Origin: Polynucleobacter meluiroseus
Lineage (GTDB): Bacteria; Pseudomonadota; Gammaproteobacteria; Burkholderiales; Burkholderiaceae
Direction of reading: 5' to 3'
DNA length: 64,000 bases
Assembly: GCA_945878885.1 (NCBI GenBank)
Contig: CAMCUP010000011.1
Coordinates: 1 to 64,000 of the forward strand
Below are positions 45,656 through 57,757 of the stretch, one piece after another. Within the stretch, counting starts at the first letter, position 1. The number at the start of each line of letters is the position of its first letter. The notes under the pieces were generated by a model that was not told the DNA's origin, searched no databases, and saw only the letters and a program-made list of their open reading frames with translations. The translations under genes were made by a program, and so were the position numbers.

Positions 45656-47424
<1,769 letters not shown>

Positions 47425-47459
47425 CATTACTCTTAACCAAGGGTTTCGATTGCTCAATG

Positions 47460-47477
47460 TGTAAACAAAAGTTTACG
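47460..47477. promoter_or_regulatory. Imperfect PpsR/CrtJ-type operator next to bchF
   Basis: TGT (47460-47462), 12 bases and ACG (47475-47477) differ from TGT-N12-ACA only at the last base. Within it GTAAAC-AAAA-GTTTAC is a perfect inverted repeat. It lies just upstream of bchF and 61 bp from a perfect site, a pairing known for PpsR/CrtJ targets. Confidence 0.6.
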
Positions 47478-47520
47478 CTTTTTCTATTTTTTAGCCCACT
47501 AGGTATCTACCCCTAGTTTA

Positions 47521-47538
47521 TGTAAATTGAAATTGACA
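47521..47538. promoter_or_regulatory. Perfect PpsR/CrtJ operator TGT-N12-ACA
   Basis: TGT (47521-47523), AAATTGAAATTG and ACA (47536-47538) match the PpsR/CrtJ consensus fully. It lies in the divergent bchF/aerR region. The last six bases form the -35 TTGACA of the candidate aerR promoter, so binding would block transcription of the regulator genes. PpsR itself is encoded at 48533-49948. Confidence 0.75.
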
Positions 47539-47562
47539 TTAGGGCTATAAATTGCGTAATCT
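47533..47562 (+). promoter_or_regulatory. Candidate promoter of aerR-ppsR-crtADC
   Basis: A perfect -35 TTGACA (47533-47538) is followed after 18 bases by TAATCT (47557-47562), a weak -10. Spacing is one base longer than ideal. It would give a leader of about 65-80 bases ahead of the aerR-like start. Confidence 0.5.
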
Positions 47563-47633
47563 ATGGGCGTAGCACATAAGTCTTGGACGGACTTAGGGTT
47601 AAATAATTGTTGCGGTGCAATATTTTCACCTCA

Positions 47634-48506
47634 ATGACTGGAGTTTATGTGAATGTACTAAATCGGCCTTTACCAATATGTGATATTTCCACATCGGCTT
47701 CCGATCTTGAGCAAAACGTACTCCAAAAAAACAAGCGCACTAAACCCAGTTACCTCTCTAGCATTGTTGAAAAAAAGGCGTTGCCCAATTTATTGGCAGA
47801 TCACGCAAATATTAAACAGTTAAGGCTAGCCAATATTGCCCATTTACCATTGCATGTTTCCGCTCGGGAAATTAGTGCATTTTCAATCTTATTGCTAACT
47901 GCCCCCTATGAAGAGTGTCGCGATTACGCTTTGCGCTTATGTCATTCGGGTTGCTCAATTAATGAAATTTACTATAGCTTAGCGGTTGATGCGGCAAGAA
48001 ATTTGGAATACTTATGGGAGGTTGACGCCTGTTCGTTTGGCTCAACAACTATAGCGATTGGTCATTTACAAGCTATTTTGCGTGAGCTTAATCCGCTTTT
48101 TCACACTCAAGCAAATCTTCACTATCAAACCAAAGGGCATGCCTTTGCCTTTGCAATGCCTAATTCACAGCATACGCTAGGCGTATTTCTGTTAACTGAA
48201 AACCTGATTCAAAATGGCTGGAATGTTTTAGCGGCCCCCAAAACTACCAAAGCAGAAATACTCAATACCGTTAAAAGCGCTTTTTTCCATTTTGTTGCCA
48301 TTTCTATCGCCACGGTTAAGCATTGGGATGAGCTAGAAAAAATCATTCCACTCATTCGAAAACAATCATTAAACCCCCAATTACATATTATAGTTGGTGG
48401 TGCACTTTTTAGGGCGCAGCCCAAATTACTCGATCAATCGAGTGCCGATAGTTGTACTAGTAATCTTGATGTAGCCATTAAAACGGCGGCAAGCCTAGTA
48501 AAATAG
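47634..48506 (+). CDS. AerR/PpaA-like cobalamin-binding photosynthesis regulator
   Basis: AerR/PpaA proteins bind B12 and counteract the repressor PpsR/CrtJ. The product (290 aa from ATG 47634) shows the family helical region LTAPYEECRDYALRLCHSG and YYSLAVDAARNLEYLWE, then a B12-fold in which NSQHTLGVFLLTENL carries the lower-ligand His, and GWNVLAAPKTT and IIVGGALF follow. The usual Asp two residues before the His is Ser here. A GTG at 47649 has a better ribosome site (GGAG) and may be the real start. It lies directly before ppsR, the conserved pair. Confidence 0.85.
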   Translation: MTGVYVNVLNRPLPICDISTSASDLEQNVLQKNKRTKPSYLSSIVEKKALPNLLADHANIKQLRLANIAHLPLHVSAREISAFSILLLTAPYEECRDYALRLCHSGCSINEIYYSLAVDAARNLEYLWEVDACSFGSTTIAIGHLQAILRELNPLFHTQANLHYQTKGHAFAFAMPNSQHTLGVFLLTENLIQNGWNVLAAPKTTKAEILNTVKSAFFHFVAISIATVKHWDELEKIIPLIRKQSLNPQLHIIVGGALFRAQPKLLDQSSADSCTSNLDVAIKTAASLVK

Positions 48507-48532
48507 AGGGTTAAATTAACTCAAGGAATGTC

Positions 48533-49948
48533 TTGTCGTCCGCAACTCTAAATCCCCTCCTCCACATTGGCTCGCTCGCGCCGCAGGAGGTGGCAACCGT
48601 AATTCAAGCTGGATCAGATCTTGCTATTGTGATGGACGAACAAGCCATCATCCTGGGTTTGGCTTTCGGAAACTCTGAGCTGTATAGCAAAAATCTTCAA
48701 GCTTGGGTTGGGCAAAATTGGGAAGAGACTGTTTCGCTGGAAAGCCGCATTAAAGTTCAAACACTCATTAAGGATGCGAAAGAATTAGGCGCCTCAAGAC
48801 TGCGGCAAATTAATATTGCCATCCCCGGAGCAACTGATCTACCATTTCTGTGTGGCACTATTTATTTACCAAGTAGCAAACGAATTGTGGCTTTATACCG
48901 GGATTTACACGAGGTATCTTTATTACAACAACGCTTAATTGATGCCCAGCAAACAATTGACCTAAACTATGCTCGTTTGCGTGAAATGGAAACGCGTAAT
49001 CGTATTTTATTTCAAATTGCCGCCAGTGAAAATATCATTATCGATAGCGTGCATTTTAAAATTTTAGAAGCAAATACTCAGTTTGTTGGCATGGTGGGGG
49101 AACCGATAAAAAAAATTATTGGTAAATCTTTTCTTGATTATCTAGCTAAAAAAGATCTCGCTGCCGTCAGGGAGGCCTTAACCAAAGCAAGCTATGGTAG
49201 CGAGAAAATTGAATTCAATGCAAGCTTTAATAGCAGTAATATATTTTTCATCGCAGCCCCTTTTCGGAATGCAAATCAGTCTTTAATTTTACTCGCATTC
49301 AAAGCAATTCAAAATAATGAAATTGCTGGTATTAATGGCAGTCAAACCCTCGCTTTATTTGCCTTAGAAAATTCAGCCGATGCTTTTGTGGTTACTGATT
49401 TAAAGGGCTTGATAATCAGTACTAATCATGCTTTTCGTAAAATGATTATGGTCGAAAAGCCTGATCAACTCCTCCATGAATCACTAGAGATTTGGCTAGA
49501 GCGCGCCAGTATTGATTTAAAGGTAATGCTATCTAATTTACAGACAGAACGGAGTATTAAATTATTTACTACTGCAATTCGCGATGCCTTTGGCGCTTTT
49601 CATCCAGTTGAAATATCTGCATCTGCCATGACTAGCCCTAAAGCCTGTATTGGTTTTTCAATTCGCGAGGTTGGCTCCCGCATTCGACCCCATTATCAGT
49701 TCGGCGAAGGCATCTCGCGTTCGAATGAAGAACTAACCCAACTCGTTGGTCGCCTGCCACTAAAAAAAATACTGAATGAAACTACGGATTTAATCGAAGA
49801 GTTATGTATTAAAGCTGCACTCGATTTATCCCGGGGTAATCGCGTAGCAGCCTCTGAAATGCTTGGCGTATCGCGCCAAAGCCTTTATATCAAATTGAGA
49901 AAATTTGGCCTCAATGACCCTTCAAAAGAGAATGATTTGGAGCCATAA
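48533..49948 (+). CDS. ppsR: Transcriptional regulator PpsR/CrtJ
   Basis: PpsR represses bch, crt and puc/puf genes under air by binding TGT-N12-ACA. The 471-aa product has an N-terminal domain, two PAS-type domains near residues 160-265 and 275-390, and a Fis-type helix-turn-helix at the C-terminus (RVAASEMLGVSRQSLYIKL). A Cys in EELCIKAALDLS directly ahead of the helix-turn-helix matches the position of the redox-active Cys of CrtJ/PpsR. The start is TTG with AAGGA five bases upstream. crtA begins at the base after its stop. Confidence 0.92.
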   Translation: MSSATLNPLLHIGSLAPQEVATVIQAGSDLAIVMDEQAIILGLAFGNSELYSKNLQAWVGQNWEETVSLESRIKVQTLIKDAKELGASRLRQINIAIPGATDLPFLCGTIYLPSSKRIVALYRDLHEVSLLQQRLIDAQQTIDLNYARLREMETRNRILFQIAASENIIIDSVHFKILEANTQFVGMVGEPIKKIIGKSFLDYLAKKDLAAVREALTKASYGSEKIEFNASFNSSNIFFIAAPFRNANQSLILLAFKAIQNNEIAGINGSQTLALFALENSADAFVVTDLKGLIISTNHAFRKMIMVEKPDQLLHESLEIWLERASIDLKVMLSNLQTERSIKLFTTAIRDAFGAFHPVEISASAMTSPKACIGFSIREVGSRIRPHYQFGEGISRSNEELTQLVGRLPLKKILNETTDLIEELCIKAALDLSRGNRVAASEMLGVSRQSLYIKLRKFGLNDPSKENDLEP

Positions 49949-50647
49949 ATGCCCAGTCTAATGGGTGCACCCGTAGTAATCATGGTCTTAGTCAAAATCA
50001 CTGAAAATGCAAAATTGAGTGGCATTGCCAAGCTGATGTTTGGTCGTTATCGACTAGGATCAGTGCCTGGTCTACAACTGATTAAACACTTGGGATCAGG
50101 GGTTAACGGGGGATTCTCAGTTAAACCAAGCGCGCTCCATCAAGGCATTTTTGCAGCTTTTAATAGTCAAGATGAAGCAACGCAATTTTTGCATGAATCC
50201 GCTTTATTAGGCTGGTATCGCGATCATGCGGATGATTTTTTTACCGCGCAATTACAGACCTACTCTTGCAAGGGCAGTTGGGGTGGTAAGTCGCTACCAA
50301 TTTATGATGCCGAAATTCCAACTGGGACAATCGCTTCACTCACCAGAGCTTCGATTAAGCCTTGGTATGCGCAACAATTTTGGAGCAAAGCGCCCCCTGC
50401 TGAAACAGAGCTCCGACAAACTTCAGGCTGTCTTCTTGCGGCTGGCGTTGGTGAGGCCCCACTCTTAAGGCAGGCCACCTTTACAATTTGGGAATCGGAA
50501 GATGCAATGAATCACTATGCCCGATCTGGCAGTCATTTAAAAGCGATTCAAGCGGCCCATAGCCAACATTATTTTTCGGAATCGATGTTTGCCCGCTTTA
50601 AACCGATAAATCTACAAGGTAGCTGGGACGGTCGCTCGTTTGGATAA
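49949..50647 (+). CDS. crtA: Spheroidene monooxygenase
   Basis: CrtA adds the C2 keto group that turns spheroidene into spheroidenone in the presence of oxygen. The 232-aa product has the family pattern LGSGVNGGFSVKPS, SALLGWYRDHADDFFTAQL, SLTRASIKPWYAQQFW near residue 125, and AGVGEAPLLRQATFTIW. It starts at the base after the ppsR stop, and its own stop overlaps the start of crtD, so ppsR-crtA-crtD are tightly linked. The oxygen-requiring product fits an aerobic phototroph. Confidence 0.93.
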   Translation: MPSLMGAPVVIMVLVKITENAKLSGIAKLMFGRYRLGSVPGLQLIKHLGSGVNGGFSVKPSALHQGIFAAFNSQDEATQFLHESALLGWYRDHADDFFTAQLQTYSCKGSWGGKSLPIYDAEIPTGTIASLTRASIKPWYAQQFWSKAPPAETELRQTSGCLLAAGVGEAPLLRQATFTIWESEDAMNHYARSGSHLKAIQAAHSQHYFSESMFARFKPINLQGSWDGRSFG

Positions 50648-52181
50648 GTCAACGGTGATTGTGGTTGGTGGTGGTATCGGTGGGCTAGCGAGCGCACTTG
50701 CCCTCGCTTGCGCCGGGCTTGAAGTGACGGTGATCGAAAAGGCATCTACCTTGGGTGGGAAAATTCGACAGATTCAAGCTGGTGACCAAGTAATCGATTC
50801 TGGGCCCACTGTTTTCACCATGCGCTGGGTATTTGACGAGCTTTTTCGTCAAGCGGGTACACGTCTAGAAGATGAAATGCAAATTTCTCCTTTAGCCATT
50901 TTGGCTCGCCATGCCTGGAGTAAAGATGAAAGGCTCGATTTATTTGCCGACCGTCTGCAGTCGGCTGAAGCCATTGCTGAATTTTCTTCGCGGGCCGAAG
51001 CGAACCGCTTCCTTGATTTTTGTAGTCAAGCCGGCCAACTGTATCAGGTGCTAAAAAAACCATACATGCTTTCTGGGCGTCCAAGCATGGGTAGCATGAT
51101 GGCTAACTTAGGCGCTTCTGGTTCAAAAGCATTATTTGAGATTGGTTTATTTAGCAACCTTTGGAAAACCTTAGGTCACTACTTTCATGATCCGCGTTTG
51201 CGACAGCTCTTTGGGCGTTACGCAACTTACTGTGGATCCTCTCCTTTTCAAGCTCCCGCTACCTTAATGCTCATCGCTGAAGTAGAAATGCAAGGCGTCT
51301 GGAGCGTTGCTGGCGGAATGTCTGCCTTAGTTAAGACATTACAGCGCCTTGCAGAACAAAAAGGGGTGCGCTTCATTACGGGTCATCAATGTAATGAAAT
51401 TTTGCTAAAGAATGGACGCGCATGTGGGGTACGTCTCGATAATGATGATGTGTATCATGCCCATTCGATTATTTTTAATGGTGATGCGCGGGCTCTGCAA
51501 GTTGGCCTATTAGGTACAGGACTTAAAAATGCCAGTGCAATTGATCGCCAAGCAATTCCCTCGCTCTCGGCCTTAACTTGGTCGATGTTAGCTAAGCCTC
51601 AAGGATTTCCGCTTCTGCGGCATACTGTCTTTTTTAATGCAAACTATCAAGCTGAATTTGATGACATTTTTATTCGCCAGCAATTACCTAAATATCCAAC
51701 TGTGTATATATGTGCCCAAGATCAAACCGATGTCCATCTTGATCGACCCCATGAACAAGGTATTTTTTGCTTGGTCAATGCACCAGCGCAAATAAGCCCG
51801 CGACCCGAACTTACTACCGAGGAGATTGAAGTATGCGAAAGTCAGGCATTCGCTTTATTAAAACAATGTGGTCTCGAACTCAATCCCAATTTGAATACGG
51901 TTACGCGTACCTCGCCGCATACCTTCAGTCAGTTATTTCCCGCAACGGGCGGAGCACTCTATGGATCAGCCAGCCATGGCTGGATGGGAATCTTCAAACG
52001 ACCAGCGGCACAGAGTACTATTCCCGGTCTTTATCTAACGGGGGGCAGCACACATCCGGGGGCGGGAGTTCCCATGGCCGCTCTATCGGGACGCATGGCG
52101 GCCGCAACGCTGATGGGTCACCTCGGTTTGATCAAGCTCTCGGGAAAGGAGCTTATCTCTGGTGGTACCTCGATGCCCTGA
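50640..52181 (+). CDS. crtD: Methoxyneurosporene/hydroxyneurosporene dehydrogenase CrtD
   Basis: CrtD introduces the C3,4 double bond in the spheroidene pathway. The 513-aa CrtI-family flavoprotein starts VIVVGGGIGGLASALALACAG, has SGPTVFTMRWVFDELF near residue 58, and the C-terminal FAD signature GGSTHPGAGVPMAALSGR near 480. The start is TTG, overlapping the crtA stop by eight bases. The last 40 or so codons overlap conserved crtC sequence in the -1 frame, and a GGGAAAG heptamer lies at 52142-52148, 30 bases before the TGA stop. Confidence 0.92.
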   Translation: MDKSTVIVVGGGIGGLASALALACAGLEVTVIEKASTLGGKIRQIQAGDQVIDSGPTVFTMRWVFDELFRQAGTRLEDEMQISPLAILARHAWSKDERLDLFADRLQSAEAIAEFSSRAEANRFLDFCSQAGQLYQVLKKPYMLSGRPSMGSMMANLGASGSKALFEIGLFSNLWKTLGHYFHDPRLRQLFGRYATYCGSSPFQAPATLMLIAEVEMQGVWSVAGGMSALVKTLQRLAEQKGVRFITGHQCNEILLKNGRACGVRLDNDDVYHAHSIIFNGDARALQVGLLGTGLKNASAIDRQAIPSLSALTWSMLAKPQGFPLLRHTVFFNANYQAEFDDIFIRQQLPKYPTVYICAQDQTDVHLDRPHEQGIFCLVNAPAQISPRPELTTEEIEVCESQAFALLKQCGLELNPNLNTVTRTSPHTFSQLFPATGGALYGSASHGWMGIFKRPAAQSTIPGLYLTGGSTHPGAGVPMAALSGRMAAATLMGHLGLIKLSGKELISGGTSMP

Positions 52182-53050
52182 GTGATGATCGCCAACATGG
52201 CATTGTCATTATTGCTTTTGTAGGTAGCGTTTTTTCACCCTACTATGCGAAAGCTCATCAAAAATCAGGGAATGGTGATCCAGAAAATCACTGTACGCTT
52301 AATGTAGCAATTTATTCGCCAGGGAAAAACCGCTGGACCATGACCGAAAGAAGTGCGCGCAATTCATCACGTAGCGCTAGTGATTTTGTCGTTGGTCCAA
52401 GCTCATTGCGCTGGGAAAAAGATTGCCTCACCATTGAAATCAAAGAGCGAGCTGTGCCGTTTGGTCAAGCCGTTCGTGGCATAGTAAGAGTATATCCAGA
52501 GCAACTATTTAATTTTTCTACCGCGCTCGATGACCAAGGTCGTCATCGCTGGGGGCCCCTTGCTCCACGGGCGCGCGTCCATGTTGAGTTGAGTAAACCC
52601 GACTTACATTGGCAGGGTAATGGTTATTTAGATTCCAATGAAGGGGATGGCCCTCTAGCACCAGATTTTCATGAGTGGGATTGGTCACGCGCCGAATTGA
52701 GTAACAAACGTACCGCCGTCATTTATGATGTACGCCAAAAAAATGGGCTTGAAAAATTACACGCCCTACTATTCCATCCGGATGGGAGCATCGAACCCTT
52801 TAAGCCACCTCCGCGGCAAACTTTACCAAAAACTGCTTGGCAAATTCAACGGCAGATGCGCAATGCAGATCAGTCTTCATTAAAATTATTGCAAACCTTA
52901 GAAGATACGCCGTTTTATGCGCGCTCAATTTTGTCTTCAGAGTTATTGGGTGAGTCAGTGATCTCGTTTCATGAAACCCTCAATGTGCCTCGCCTCGCCT
53001 CGCCAGTTGTGCAATGGATGTTAGCTTGGCGAATGCCACGGGTGCGCTAA
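51833..53050 (+). CDS. crtC: Acyclic carotenoid 1,2-hydratase CrtC (start uncertain)
   Basis: CrtC hydrates the C1,2 bond of neurosporene or its derivatives. Conserved sequence begins at about 52121 (PRFDQALGKGAYLWWYLDAL, then IIAFVGSVFSPYYAKA) and runs to the stop, about 309 aa. No ATG, GTG or TTG occurs in this frame between 51866 and the conserved region. The ATG at 51833 has GAGGAG eight bases upstream, but it would add 96 residues read out of frame from the conserved end of crtD. A -1 shift from crtD at GGGAAAG (52142-52148) would instead enter this frame exactly at the WWYLDAL segment. The stop is 3 bp from the crtB stop on the other strand. Confidence 0.85.
   Translation: MRKSGIRFIKTMWSRTQSQFEYGYAYLAAYLQSVISRNGRSTLWISQPWLDGNLQTTSGTEYYSRSLSNGGQHTSGGGSSHGRSIGTHGGRNADGSPRFDQALGKGAYLWWYLDALSDDRQHGIVIIAFVGSVFSPYYAKAHQKSGNGDPENHCTLNVAIYSPGKNRWTMTERSARNSSRSASDFVVGPSSLRWEKDCLTIEIKERAVPFGQAVRGIVRVYPEQLFNFSTALDDQGRHRWGPLAPRARVHVELSKPDLHWQGNGYLDSNEGDGPLAPDFHEWDWSRAELSNKRTAVIYDVRQKNGLEKLHALLFHPDGSIEPFKPPPRQTLPKTAWQIQRQMRNADQSSLKLLQTLEDTPFYARSILSSELLGESVISFHETLNVPRLASPVVQWMLAWRMPRVR
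52142..52148 (+). other. GGGAAAG slippery heptamer at the crtD-crtC junction
   Basis: In the crtD frame the site reads G GGA AAG, the X XXY YYZ form that allows two tRNAs to slip back one base. The same heptamer is the known -1 site of the phage lambda G-T genes. A shift here leaves the crtD frame 30 bases before its stop and enters the crtC frame. No strong downstream stem or upstream SD-like stimulator was evident by eye. Confidence 0.45.
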
Positions 53051-53053
53051 AAA

Positions 53054-54103
53054 TTAGGCAGCAATTTTTTGTGGCTCTACTGGCACCTTAGCTTGTTCGC
53101 GACGCCGCATCTCAACCCGCTCTAATAAATTCACTACCCATACTAAACGCGCGTGAATTGAGCCCCCATAATGGGGTTGATGCGGCACCTTAATGACCGC
53201 TTCAATTAAATATTGAATTGACTGATGGGCTGGAATTAAGCGTTTACTCCAATTGCGCTTCGCGGTAACTAACATCGCACGACTTAATAAGTGAATTTTC
53301 TTTTGGCTAGAAACAATCGCACGTACAGCGATTGAATTCAGCTGATTTTGTTCAATTTGATGACCAATTTCAGCATAAATTAAACGCGCTGCTTGAATTG
53401 CTGGACGGCAATCCCAGGGCAGGTCAGTAATGCCAATTTCGGCTTGCTCGTATAAGGCATCTGCTTGCTTTAATAAGCGCTCGACTACCCGAGCAATAGC
53501 AGGATTAAAGTGGGGATTCTTCAGCCACTGATCGGGATCAATACCTTCTTCTACTAACCAACTACGCGGCAAATATAAGCGTCCATTCATGGCATCTTCG
53601 CCTATATCACGCGCAATATTAGTAAGTTGCATAGCCAAGCCAAGATCGCAAGCGCGGGCTAAGGTTGCTGGATCTCGCTTGCCCATCATTAGACACATCA
53701 TCGCACCGACTGAACCAGCAACACGCGCGCAATAATCTAATAAGGCATCTAAGGTCACGTACTGGCGATGCTGACTGTCCCATTCATAACCCTCAATTAG
53801 TGCGCGTAATAATTCTTGGGGAATATCGTAATAACGTACTACTTCAGCTAAGGCTCGATCAGCTGCTTGACGATCAGGCTCACCTTGATAAATGCGTTCT
53901 AAACGACCGTATAATTCCGTTATAGCGTCGGGCTTGGCATCGACTGCGTCGGCAATATCATCAGTCAGGCGACAAAAGGCATAGAGTGCAATTGCGGGAT
54001 CACGCACGCGCTTAGGCAAAAGACGTGATGCAGCAAAAAATGATTTTGAGCCGACTCGCATCGTTTCAGTGCACTGAGCAACATCGTTACTAAATTGACT
54101 CAT
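53054..54103 (-). CDS. crtB: Phytoene synthase
   Basis: CrtB condenses two geranylgeranyl diphosphates to phytoene. The 349-aa product has both Asp-rich motifs: AFCRLTDDIADAVD near residue 45 and QLTNIARDIGEDAMNGRLYL near 165. It overlaps crtI by four bases (ATGA). It is the last gene of the bchC-puf-crtIB strand and converges on crtC. Confidence 0.96.
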   Translation of the reverse strand: MSQFSNDVAQCTETMRVGSKSFFAASRLLPKRVRDPAIALYAFCRLTDDIADAVDAKPDAITELYGRLERIYQGEPDRQAADRALAEVVRYYDIPQELLRALIEGYEWDSQHRQYVTLDALLDYCARVAGSVGAMMCLMMGKRDPATLARACDLGLAMQLTNIARDIGEDAMNGRLYLPRSWLVEEGIDPDQWLKNPHFNPAIARVVERLLKQADALYEQAEIGITDLPWDCRPAIQAARLIYAEIGHQIEQNQLNSIAVRAIVSSQKKIHLLSRAMLVTAKRNWSKRLIPAHQSIQYLIEAVIKVPHQPHYGGSIHARLVWVVNLLERVEMRRREQAKVPVEPQKIAA

Positions 54104-55650
54104 ACCAAACTCTCCCTTAAAGACGGCATCGCGTTGGGCTGTTGATATATCGCTTTTGGTACAACCGACATCAAGGCCTTGGCAGAAGATAAAACCCCAG
54201 GAATGCCTGCTCCCGGATGTGTGCCAGCGCCCACCATAAAAAGCCCACGCACATCTTCGCTGCGATTGTGGGGCCTAAACCAAGCACTTTGCAGCAAGAG
54301 CGGTTCAAAACCAAAAGCTGCGCCTTTTACTGACAGTAAGCGATCTTGAAAATCTTGGGGCGTCATGCAAAAAGAGGTTTTAAGGTGCGCTTGAAAACCT
54401 GGCATGACTGTAGCCTCTAAATAATCGGCAATTTTTTGTCGGTAAGTTTTACCGTAGGCCTGCCAATCAGTGCCACTATCCAAATTAGGCACCGGAGATA
54501 AAACATAAAAAGTGTCACAACCCGCTGGGGCTAAAGATAGGTCAGTAGCAGTGGGTCGATGCAAATAAAGACTAAAGTCGTCAGCTAATATTTTGCGTTT
54601 AAAAATGTCTGTTAATAATTCTTTGTAACGCTTACCTAATAAAATCATATGATGTGGAATATCGTGATACTGCCGATCAATACCAAAATACCAAACGAAC
54701 AAACTCATTGAATACTTGCTATTCATTACTTTCTGATCAGTCCAGACACGGCGGTGTTCAGGATCAATTAATTTTTGATAAGTCCAGGCGGCGTCGGCAT
54801 TAGAAATGATGATATCAGCAGCAATAAAACTACCATCAGCCGTAGTGATACCAGTTGCCTGGCCATTTTTTACAACAATTTTCTTCACTTCAGTATTGCA
54901 TTCAATCTCGACGCCCTGATCGCGTAATAGCCTAACTAAGCCCTGAATAATTGAGCCAGTGCCACCCATTGCTGAAAAAACTCCATGCCTTCTTTCAAGC
55001 GAATTAATTAAGGCATACACTGCGGTTACAGAAAATGGATTACCACCAATTAATAAGGGATGAAAACTCATCACTTGGCGTAATTTCGGATTTTTAAAAT
55101 ACCGCGCTACCAGCGTATGAATACTTTCCCATGCTTTCATGCGAATCATCGCTGGAATGGCGGCGAGCAAATCTTTCAGTGAATCAAAAGCAACCGAACT
55201 TAAATCTTCAAAGCCTAATTTATAGCATTTCTCGGCCTCTTGAAGAAACTGGTCAAAGCCCACTAAATCTTCGGAAGCAAACTTGGCTACCTCTTGACGC
55301 ATTTGCGTTAAGTTACCGGTGTAGTCAAAGTGCGTGCCATCATCAAAACGAATCCGATAAAACGGATCCATGAGACGTAAATCAACATCGTCACTGAATT
55401 TTTCGCCGCATAGATCCCAAAGCTCTTCTAATAAAAATGGGGCCGTAATAATGGTGGGGCCAGCATCAAAAGTAAAGCCATCTTTTTTAAAGACAGATGC
55501 CCTGCCACCGGGTGCATCGAGTTTCTCAATAACCCGCACTTGATAGCCATGATGTGCTAAACGAATCGCTGCAGCTAAACCACCAAAACCGCTGCCTATA
55601 ACTAAGGCAACTGGGCGGTGATCATCAGCAAAAACAGTCTTTTTCAACAT
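54100..55650 (-). CDS. crtI: Phytoene desaturase
   Basis: CrtI desaturates phytoene to neurosporene or lycopene. The 516-aa flavoprotein begins with the dinucleotide fold ALVIGSGFGGLAAAIRLAHHG, has FDAGPTIITAPFLLEELW near residue 75 and the C-terminal GLFMVGAGTHPGAGIPGVLSSAK. It starts 29 bases after pufC; a short inverted repeat lies in that gap. Its partner crtB follows with a 4-base overlap. Confidence 0.95.
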   Translation of the reverse strand: MLKKTVFADDHRPVALVIGSGFGGLAAAIRLAHHGYQVRVIEKLDAPGGRASVFKKDGFTFDAGPTIITAPFLLEELWDLCGEKFSDDVDLRLMDPFYRIRFDDGTHFDYTGNLTQMRQEVAKFASEDLVGFDQFLQEAEKCYKLGFEDLSSVAFDSLKDLLAAIPAMIRMKAWESIHTLVARYFKNPKLRQVMSFHPLLIGGNPFSVTAVYALINSLERRHGVFSAMGGTGSIIQGLVRLLRDQGVEIECNTEVKKIVVKNGQATGITTADGSFIAADIIISNADAAWTYQKLIDPEHRRVWTDQKVMNSKYSMSLFVWYFGIDRQYHDIPHHMILLGKRYKELLTDIFKRKILADDFSLYLHRPTATDLSLAPAGCDTFYVLSPVPNLDSGTDWQAYGKTYRQKIADYLEATVMPGFQAHLKTSFCMTPQDFQDRLLSVKGAAFGFEPLLLQSAWFRPHNRSEDVRGLFMVGAGTHPGAGIPGVLSSAKALMSVVPKAIYQQPNAMPSLRESLV

Positions 55651-55662
55651 AAGTAATGGTAG

Positions 55663-55678
55663 TTACGGTAATCCGTAA
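55663..55678. repeat. Short inverted repeat between pufC and crtI
   Basis: TTACGG-TAAT-CCGTAA forms a 6-bp stem with a 4-base loop at the pufC 3' end. It has no T tract, so it is not a clear terminator. It may slow 3' decay of puf mRNA or partly separate puf from crtIB. Confidence 0.45.
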
Positions 55679-55679
55679 A

Positions 55680-56738
55680 CTATTTCACTGTCGATACACT
55701 AGTAAGACTGGTTTTAGTTGCTGCAGTAGTTGTGCCACTGCCACGTAAGTAAGGGTAATCAGTCAACATCGAAACGCCGTACAAAGGCTTGTACGCACCC
55801 TGATGGCAAGTACCACAATTTGCCTTAGCAACATCGCCAGTTGGACCCAAGCGATGGGCTGGAAATACTTTGGTTAGGGGCACCATAAAATTATTATTAA
55901 TATCTTGCGCCATACGAATTCCATACCAAGCAGTTGAGCGCTGTGGCGGGCTTTCTTCCCAGTTAGCAATAGCGCGGGTGTTATGGCAATAAGTACAATT
56001 AACTCCGAGCGATTTCGACATATGAATCATCAGGGCAAAGGTCTTTTCTGTATCTTTAATATTGCGCTTGTTATCAGTACGTAAAGCAGTATCACCATTA
56101 ACCTCAATCATGCTGTCTTTTAATAAAAAAGGCGTAAATGGATCATAGGGCAAACTTGACAACCCAACGGATTGACTGGGGGTATTTTGACCATTTTTAT
56201 TACCCAACCAACCATTACCCTGCTTTTGTTCCGGGGCAGTAAACCACACTTGCTGGGGAATATTATTCCCCCGGTGACAGGTATAGCATGTCACGCCAGT
56301 TTGCTTAACATGGGTTTGCCAGTTGCTATTAATACGCTGGTTCATTTGAATCATGCGCCGTGAAACTATCTTAGTGTACTTACTATCATCGGCAAAATTT
56401 TCAACATTATGGCAGTACGCACAACCTTGTTGCGGTGAAACCCAACTAGTCATCGAAACCATAAAAGCGGTAAATTGCGCGGTACTTAAGTTACCTAAAA
56501 CTTTGACATTTTTATATGCAGTGGCCGCCTTTGGCCCATCGGCAGGCACCGGATAAGAAGCAGGCACCACGTTATCGGGGGCTTGGGCGGCTAAGGTACG
56601 CGGGTTATATATAAGATCCATCGCGGTGCCGCGATAACCATGCTGAACAGCTTCTATGGGCGGGCGTTCACAGCCTACGAGTAATAGCATACTGAACAGA
56701 ATGGACAGTAGACTAAATTTGGCATAAATAGTCTTCAT
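55680..56738 (-). CDS. pufC: Reaction-centre tetraheme cytochrome c subunit
   Basis: PufC is the periplasmic lipoprotein that re-reduces the special pair. The 352-aa product has a lipoprotein signal ending [10 protein letters not shown] and four heme-binding motifs: CAYCH, CYTCH, CTYCH and CGTCH. The ATG overlaps the pufM stop (ATGA). Four hemes is the full number for this family. Confidence 0.96.
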
Positions 56739-57757
56739 GGTTTCATCCCCTGCATTGGAATCTGTGGAACTGGTGGTGGTGGAGCCACAAAAGTAGTGGC
56801 AGGATCAACCGTAATGCCGCCAAATACATTCGGGTAAGTTGGTGCAACATGGTGCTTAACAGCCCACAGATACCAATTATCGACTACGGTTCCAGTTAAT
56901 AGAATGCCGATGCCGCCAACTAATGGTGTGAGGACAGCAAACCACCAAGCCCATCGATGTATTGATTCCATGGTAGCGTTAAATCCCATCGTCCAGCGCC
57001 AAAATAAAGCGGCCCGCTCTGAGGCAGTTCCACGATCGACGATCTGCTCTATTTCACGCTCACCGCCAAAACGTGAGACTGCCAAAATTGTGCCGGCGTG
57101 CATCGCAAATAAGAGCACTGAGCCATAGAGGAAGGCAATTGAAAGCATGTGGAACGGGTTGTAAAACAAATTACCATAACGCAAAGAAAAAGCAGCTGTC
57201 CAATCGAGGTGCGAGAAAATACCAAATGGCACACCCTCGCTCCAACTACCCATCAGTAATGGCCGTAAAAATCCTAAAACTAAAAAGAGCCAAATGGCGG
57301 CTAAAAATCCCCAAGCTACATGGGTTCCCAGGCCTAGTGCGACTGCCCGTCGATAGGTACGCAACCACCATAATAAAATTGCGAGTGTCAAAAAGAAGCC
57401 AGCCATCATCCACCAGCCACCTTCAGCTAAAGGCATAAATAATTTCAAGCCATATTTGGGATTAGGCGGATCAAGAGATAACCAAAAAAATTGCTTTACA
57501 AATTGAATCGGACTCCAGTTCACCGAAGCCAGCATATTCCAGCCCATGATTTGAATTGCAATGGTGCCAAAAAATAAGGAAGCTATTCCAAGCCAGCCCA
57601 AATAAATCGGGCCAATTTGGGCATTACCAATGCGCCCCATTAAATGAAATAAGAAGGGCTTACCGATCCGATTACGTCGATCATACCGATCTAAAGGTAT
57701 GCCTTCATGAATGGGTCCAACGACCTGAACTTGGGTAAAGAGATTTTGATATTCCAT
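56735..57757 (-). CDS. pufM: Photosynthetic reaction centre M subunit
   Basis: The M subunit binds pigments and the primary quinone with PufL. The 340-aa product has five spans, the special-pair ligand region [21 protein letters not shown], the iron-ligand histidines in MHAGTIL and the [12 protein letters not shown] segment, and the quinone site around GFNATMES. It has the longer C-terminal tail (about 25 residues rich in Pro) typical of species with PufC. It starts 18 bases after pufL. Confidence 0.97.

Follow-up and report, generated by a model that had tools for sequence, protein, structure and literature searches.

The crtD/crtC locus

The window, by which we mean the whole 64,000-nt stretch of DNA analysed, belongs to a 2.2-Mb genome assembled in 98 contigs, and its crtC has its close named relatives in Polynucleobacter and other Burkholderiales. 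Positions 46939 to 57757 resemble what we take to be a photosynthesis gene cluster, with crtB- and crtI-like open reading frames (ORFs) and ORFs like reaction-centre cytochrome and subunit genes. Here crtD is followed on the same strand by crtC, and the two overlap (Table 1). CrtD scores 647.9 bits against NCBIfam NF045637, which passes that model's cut-off of 580. As listed, from a TTG at 50640, crtD shares 8 nt (50640 to 50647) with the stop end of an upstream 232-aa ORF (49949 to 50647).

The crtC frame lies one base behind the crtD frame and is open to 53050. Conserved CrtC sequence begins at the P of a PRFDQ..YLWWY block at 52121, 61 nt before the end of crtD; this is position 0 in what follows. 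Reading upstream from the block, the first in-frame ATG, GTG, or TTG is ATG 51866, as the first-pass annotation of this DNA had observed, and the next is ATG 51833 (−288), where the crtD frame reads GTA TGC (Val-Cys). The same annotation drew attention to GGGAAAG, the −1 frameshift heptamer of the phage lambda G-T genes, and the sequence bears this out: the crtD frame reads G GGA AAG at 52142 to 52148, 30 nt before the stop at 52179 to 52181.

CrtC of the window matches NCBIfam NF045922 with an E value of 7.5e-73 but with 245.3 bits, below the cut-off of 400, and from residue 126 only. That model starts after the conserved YLWWY block and may have been built on truncated proteins. H238, W240, Y265, and D267 are invariant among 59 long CrtC sequences, and, matched by spacing, they are placed like the catalytic His239, Trp241, Tyr266, and Asp268 given in the covered parts of PMC4717167. 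Comparison of long CrtC by sequence with solved structures gave no match at E 0.01.

Table 1 Features of the overlapping crtD and crtC genes, in window coordinates
Feature	Position	Strand	Basis
crtD, 1-hydroxycarotenoid 3,4-desaturase	50640..52181	+	ORF list; TTG start as listed mechanically; TGA stop 52179-52181
GAGGAG, putative Shine-Dalgarno sequence of crtC inside crtD	51819..51824	+	Sequence; 8 nt before ATG 51833
ATG, predicted start codon of crtC, embedded in crtD, −1 frame	51833..51835	+	Start-column conservation and wobble A
crtC, carotenoid 1,2-hydratase	51833..53050	+	ORF list; 405 aa with the embedded start; TAA 53048-53050
Predicted overprinted 96-residue CrtC leader, −1 frame of the crtD 3' region	51833..52120	+	Open frame and synonymous test
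crtD/crtC overlap, 349 nt	51833..52181	+	Sequence
Part of the overlap with both products conserved (CrtC PRFDQALGKGAYLWWYLDAL; crtD C-terminus)	52121..52181	+	Synonymous test
GGGAAAG heptamer, judged incidental	52142..52148	+	Present in 3 of 150 loci

Loci compared

We gathered 212 loci (L001 to L212); the CrtC block begins within 210 of them, and 196 remain once duplicates are removed. Conservation was scored on 150 loci, taken from the 178 then gathered; these are non-duplicate and have a crtD that stays open over 340 codons or more and extends beyond the CrtC block in the +1 frame. Figures from this set are conditional, since its loci were picked for a crtD that runs past the block. The 28 loci left out comprise 13 duplicates and 15 with crtD open for fewer than 340 codons in the +1 frame, 7 of them cut by contig ends and 8 without the embedded-start arrangement. 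An order-level search around genome G1165 found CrtC in 1 of 53 genomes, G1165 itself, and no further CrtC. Counted from the start column through the last base of the crtD stop, the overlap has a median length of 349 nt (range, 298 to 427; 150 loci).

A conserved start codon and ribosome site inside crtD

One reading offered by the first-pass annotation was a long CrtC starting at ATG 51833, with GAGGAG upstream and 96 residues overprinting crtD. The start column, the wobble base, the open frame, the synonymous rate, and mRNA folding all lend it strong support. In the start column, 143 of the 150 loci carry ATG, 4 GTG, and 1 each TTG, CTG, and ATA; the ATA locus (L144) has an ATG at −252 and the CTG locus (L032) has one at −222. 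None of the other crtC-frame columns (300 examined) reaches more than 26 ATG or more than 92 standard starts.

The A of this ATG coincides with the third, wobble position of the crtD codon before it, and that base is A in 144 of 150 loci versus 34.6 expected from each genome's codon use. The excess (z 25.5) ranks first among 389 crtD columns, the next being 8.4, and it holds across codons for 12 amino acids (Q, A, R, T, S, P, K, L, E, I, V, and G). Even at a GC content of at least 0.65, where 5.3% of crtD third bases are A, 64 of 68 loci keep the wobble A, and the remaining 4 have GTG or another triplet. Among 51 independent pairs of loci, the preceding crtD codon differs in 19, and in 16 of these both codons end in A; at six other variable columns, third bases agree in 2/21, 2/12, 10/24, 5/15, 7/25, and 7/23 of the differing pairs.

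Positions −12 to −9 relative to the ATG read GGAG in 90 and GGAA in 26 of the 150 loci (together 116). At least 4 nt of AAGGAGGTGA, the anti-Shine-Dalgarno complement, are matched within −16 to −4 in 134 loci, and the site is weak (3 nt or fewer) in 16. Around the start, the mRNA folds less well than in synonymous shuffles with the site left intact (mean z 0.96; z positive in 84%); at four control places the mean z is 0.27, −0.15, −0.08, and −0.33. The ATG also forces a TGN codon on crtD, which encodes Cys in 145, Trp in 4, and Tyr in 1 (the ATA locus) of the 150 loci. Cys or Trp stands there in 3 of 9 loci in which crtC starts beside the crtD stop; their aligned residues (H, C, I, G, C, C, M, L, and F) are approximate, the alignment having used fixed-length addition. 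Locus L131 has Cys in crtD but CTG at the triplet.

Other candidate starts were considered and rejected. A recurring in-frame xTG at −141 corresponds to Gly-Trp in crtD (GGN TGG), and its first base varies freely, with ATG in 24 and any standard start in 42 of 150 loci, so that it makes a useful internal control. Starts at −255 and −222 are scattered among the 150 loci.

An open frame and selection on both frames

Between the start and the block, no stop interrupts the crtC frame in 146 of 150 loci, versus 44.6 expected when crtD codons are swapped for synonyms; 10 stops were seen versus 239 expected from these shuffles, all of them in four loci (L005, L006, L007, and L032). Below a GC content of 0.52 the frame is open in 35 of 39 loci versus 1.9 expected. 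The third frame, used as a control, is open in 9 loci versus 13.6 expected, so the shuffling method is not the source of the effect.

Synonymous change in crtD was compared with expectation over the 51 independent pairs, chosen greedily, with z values that assume independent sites. Upstream, the observed/expected ratio is 1.00; it falls to 0.51 at the ribosome site and start and remains low as far as the end of crtD, at 0.71 over the leader (−275 to −20; z −14.8) and 0.18 over the shared conserved block (z −20.9). Windows of crtD from −506 to −336 also dip, to 0.83. The drop recurs in separate sets (0.71 in 43 pairs, 0.68 in 8 pairs of later-fetched loci). Within the leader the ratio is 0.31 at sites where a T would make a stop and 0.73 at sites where no stop can arise. 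The leader sequence itself is poorly conserved among CrtC proteins. In crtI, a paralogous downstream gene used as a control (17 pairs), the ratio is 0.94, 0.95, and 0.98 for codons 115 to 90, 90 to 60, and 60 to 30 from the end, with small dips at the very end (0.84, z −2.1; 0.68, z −1.4, few sites). A sustained synonymous fall of the crtD kind is absent from crtI.

Distribution of the embedded start among relatives

In an unselected count, the embedded start is present in 180 of 193 classifiable loci and absent from 13. Of the 196 non-duplicate loci, 173 start at −345 to −260 with the crtC frame open and crtD in the same phase, a class that admits any ATG, GTG, or TTG in that range and so includes weak cases: L202 (GTG at −291, no clear ribosome site), L187 (no clear ribosome site), and L195 (printed at −270). 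An embedded start nearer the block (−252 to −216) is present in 7 more, and crtC of 9 others begins next to the crtD stop, at −18 to +3. Another 4 lack an upstream crtD and have their start no more than 72 nt from the CrtC block; the last 3 are truncated by a contig end. The long class spans beta-, alpha-, and gammaproteobacteria. Its named members include Polynucleobacter, Rubrivivax, Limnohabitans, and Hydrogenophaga, together with Roseobacter, Sulfitobacter, Novosphingobium, Methylobacterium, and the purple sulfur bacterium Thiodictyon. The Thiodictyon plasmid pTs485 (L175) carries two adjacent genes annotated crtD upstream of crtC (1 to 895 and 1032 to 2519).

Several of the short cases (L128, L192, and L211) are ATGA- or GTGA-type overlaps, whose phase the embedded start shares. 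Locus L192, with a GTGA-type start next to the crtD stop, was counted as short, yet it keeps an in-frame ATG at −312; it is possibly an intermediate state. Five Polynucleobacter-type loci (L005, L006, L007, L032, and L034) have an ATG at −222, behind a weak ribosome site (GGA), in place of −288. In L005, L006, L007, and L032, it looks as if the start moved downstream and the abandoned stretch decayed. On a tree of 193 CrtC sequences, midpoint-rooted and built from CrtC alone, parsimony places the embedded start at the root with six changes away from it, and on that rooting we infer that the embedded start came first and gave way several times to one next to the crtD stop.

How crtC is translated

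The comparison of loci, in our view, settles the position of the start and its conservation, and at the level of sequence it shows an open frame and selection on both frames. On this evidence crtC very probably has a ribosome site of its own inside crtD, GAGGAG and ATG 51833, from which it is translated, with an overlap of 349 nt. Ribosomes reading crtD would pass through these 349 nt in the other frame. The predicted CrtC has two parts: a 96-residue leader, encoded by the −1 frame of the sequence for the conserved C-terminal region of CrtD, and behind it the hydratase domain. The crtD stop lies 349 nt downstream of the embedded start, and we infer that ribosomes initiate directly at the embedded ATG rather than stopping and restarting at the crtD stop.

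The first-pass annotation had also proposed a programmed −1 frameshift at GGGAAAG that joins CrtD and CrtC in one chain of about 90 kDa, and a −1 shift at the heptamer, which sits in the crtD frame close to the stop, does enter conserved CrtC. However, of the 150 loci, 3 carry GGGAAAG: L001, which is the window's own locus, L003, and L019. Counting every X XXY YYZ heptamer that lies in the crtD frame from −60 up to the crtD stop gives 15 of 150. The crtC frame is, moreover, open and constrained over ~290 nt ahead of the heptamer, something that a shift at this point would not require. The same letters stand in the upstream frame in phage lambda G-T, whereas in crtD the heptamer is unconserved and the downstream frame appears to be separately started. 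An embedded start leaves the frameshift with nothing to explain, and we regard the fusion as extremely improbable. What relatives do share with the window, unlike the heptamer, is the lack of a nearby standard start: an ATG, GTG, or TTG in the 120 nt before the block occurs in 24 of 150 loci, over 11 positions, none common to more than 6 loci. The remaining suggestion was a non-standard start such as CTG. A non-AUG codon near the crtD stop, for example CTG 52178, which overlaps the stop as CTGA, is where public annotation often has crtC begin; six of 10 annotated plasmid records use CTG, ATA, ATC, or ATT, five of them at +57. Such a start would remove the conserved PRFDQ..YLWWY block, though, and would leave the conserved ATG, the ribosome site, and the open frame unaccounted for. 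No near-cognate codon is conserved between −120 and the block, and the best positions inside the block, counting CTG with ATG, GTG, and TTG, are +81 (69 of 150 loci) and +57 (50 of 150). We therefore consider it very unlikely.

That the overlap is an artefact of annotation or sequencing would accord with the covered parts of PMC2478687, in which all 715 co-directional overlaps of >60 bp examined were judged artefacts, and with an assembly in 98 contigs. Against this, 180 of 193 classifiable loci have the same arrangement with both frames intact, and the wobble-A, synonymous-rate, and open-frame statistics speak otherwise; because independent genomes share the arrangement, the artefact reading is already refuted, and we give it virtually no weight. 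Far more credible, though in our judgement somewhat short of an even chance, is that translation starts at ATG 51833 and the working enzyme is mainly a shorter form left after leader removal. According to the covered parts of PMC4717167, Thiocapsa roseopersicina CrtC in Escherichia coli gave bands of 44 and 38 kDa with cleavage at S57/S58 by mass spectrometry, and truncated CrtC forms stay active; in addition, the nine short-arrangement loci start at −18 to +3 of the block. The cleavage was, however, observed in recombinant protein, and leader removal is compatible with the embedded start, to which it adds an extra step.

Possible role of the leader

The leader may be tolerated and trimmed off. 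Tentatively, and with considerable doubt, we suggest instead that it may be an ancient working segment: an N-terminal domain that arose de novo, out of frame, from the CrtD motif and was kept because it helps CrtC in membrane placement, in assembly with CrtD, or in controlled trimming, with the embedded start setting the ratio of two consecutive pathway enzymes. This idea is favoured by the depressed synonymous change in crtD even at leader sites without a possible stop (0.73). It is disfavoured by the activity of truncated enzymes and by the roughly six losses inferred on the tree: the covered parts of PMC4717167 report full activity after removal of 45 (Rubrivivax gelatinosus) or 57 (T. roseopersicina) CrtC residues and call the N-terminal part unconserved and dispensable.

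Public annotation and earlier descriptions

Eleven plasmid records have a match, all with the embedded ATG, and 10 of these are annotated here. All 10 annotations start CrtC downstream, at +3 to +150 of the block; nine lose at least part of the block's first residues, and one loses a single residue. The six non-AUG annotated starts are CTG, ATT, CTG, ATA, ATC, and CTG (L174, L178, L179, L181, L182, and L183, respectively).

An older annotation of R. gelatinosus placed the start better than the plasmid annotations did. Eleven loci contain a match to primer Rg_45aa of PMC4717167. In 10 of them, among which are two Rubrivivax sp. metagenome-assembled genomes and R. rivuli, it lies at −153; in the eleventh (L156, start at −324), it lies at −189. 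A match at −153 implies that the first residue of the published R. gelatinosus CrtC falls at about −288, so that by primer match the cloned recombinant enzyme begins at the same place as the embedded start. The T. roseopersicina primer of the same study had no match among the loci. By their primers, the metagenomic constructs Fos06 and Fos13 begin inside the PRFDQ..YLWWY block; both were inactive, as were three longer enzymes there, so the cause is not assignable from the covered parts of PMC4717167. Those parts, on the R. gelatinosus and T. roseopersicina enzymes, make no mention of the crtD overlap or of start conservation. We found no description of the overlap in the portions covered of the open literature on a crtC/crtD overlap or start and on long same-strand overlaps; the word “overlap” is absent from PMC10604819, and the overlap passages in the covered parts of PMC4331045 concern pigments and spectra.

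Implications and comparison with known overlaps

Annotation pipelines, and a widely used rule set out in the covered parts of PMC2478687, treat co-directional overlaps of >60 bp as errors. CrtC entries truncated inside the YLWWY block should be re-annotated. The locus is also a tractable case for internal initiation on an mRNA already under translation, and an instance in which the start codon of one gene can dictate which residue (Cys or Trp) a different enzyme carries.

In the covered parts of PMC2478687 and PMC3887535, same-strand overlapping pairs, such as ATGA overlaps and holD-rimI, likewise consist of adjacent genes on one strand in different frames. The ATGA- or GTGA-type arrangement is listed as the commonest (PMC3887535, as covered), and the common 4-nt ATGA overlap has the same phase as the crtD/crtC overlap. 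Capture of an upstream start figures among the modelled routes to such overlaps in this literature. The 2008 survey (PMC2478687, as covered) counted none as real among 715 co-directional overlaps of >60 bp, its longest real one being 56 bp; judged from the comparative sequence evidence, crtD/crtC is a strong counterexample. Same-strand overlaps are common, but not of this length and age between two enzyme genes: the crtD/crtC overlap is 349 nt, with a start fixed in place across several proteobacterial orders. The Thermus rnpA-rpmH pair, according to the covered parts of PMC9841429, is likewise a long out-of-frame overlap involving a conserved enzyme subunit gene and an overprinted N-terminal part. 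The Thermus genes are fully nested, one within the other, and a single Shine-Dalgarno site serves both ATGs, whereas crtC appears to have its own, deep inside crtD.
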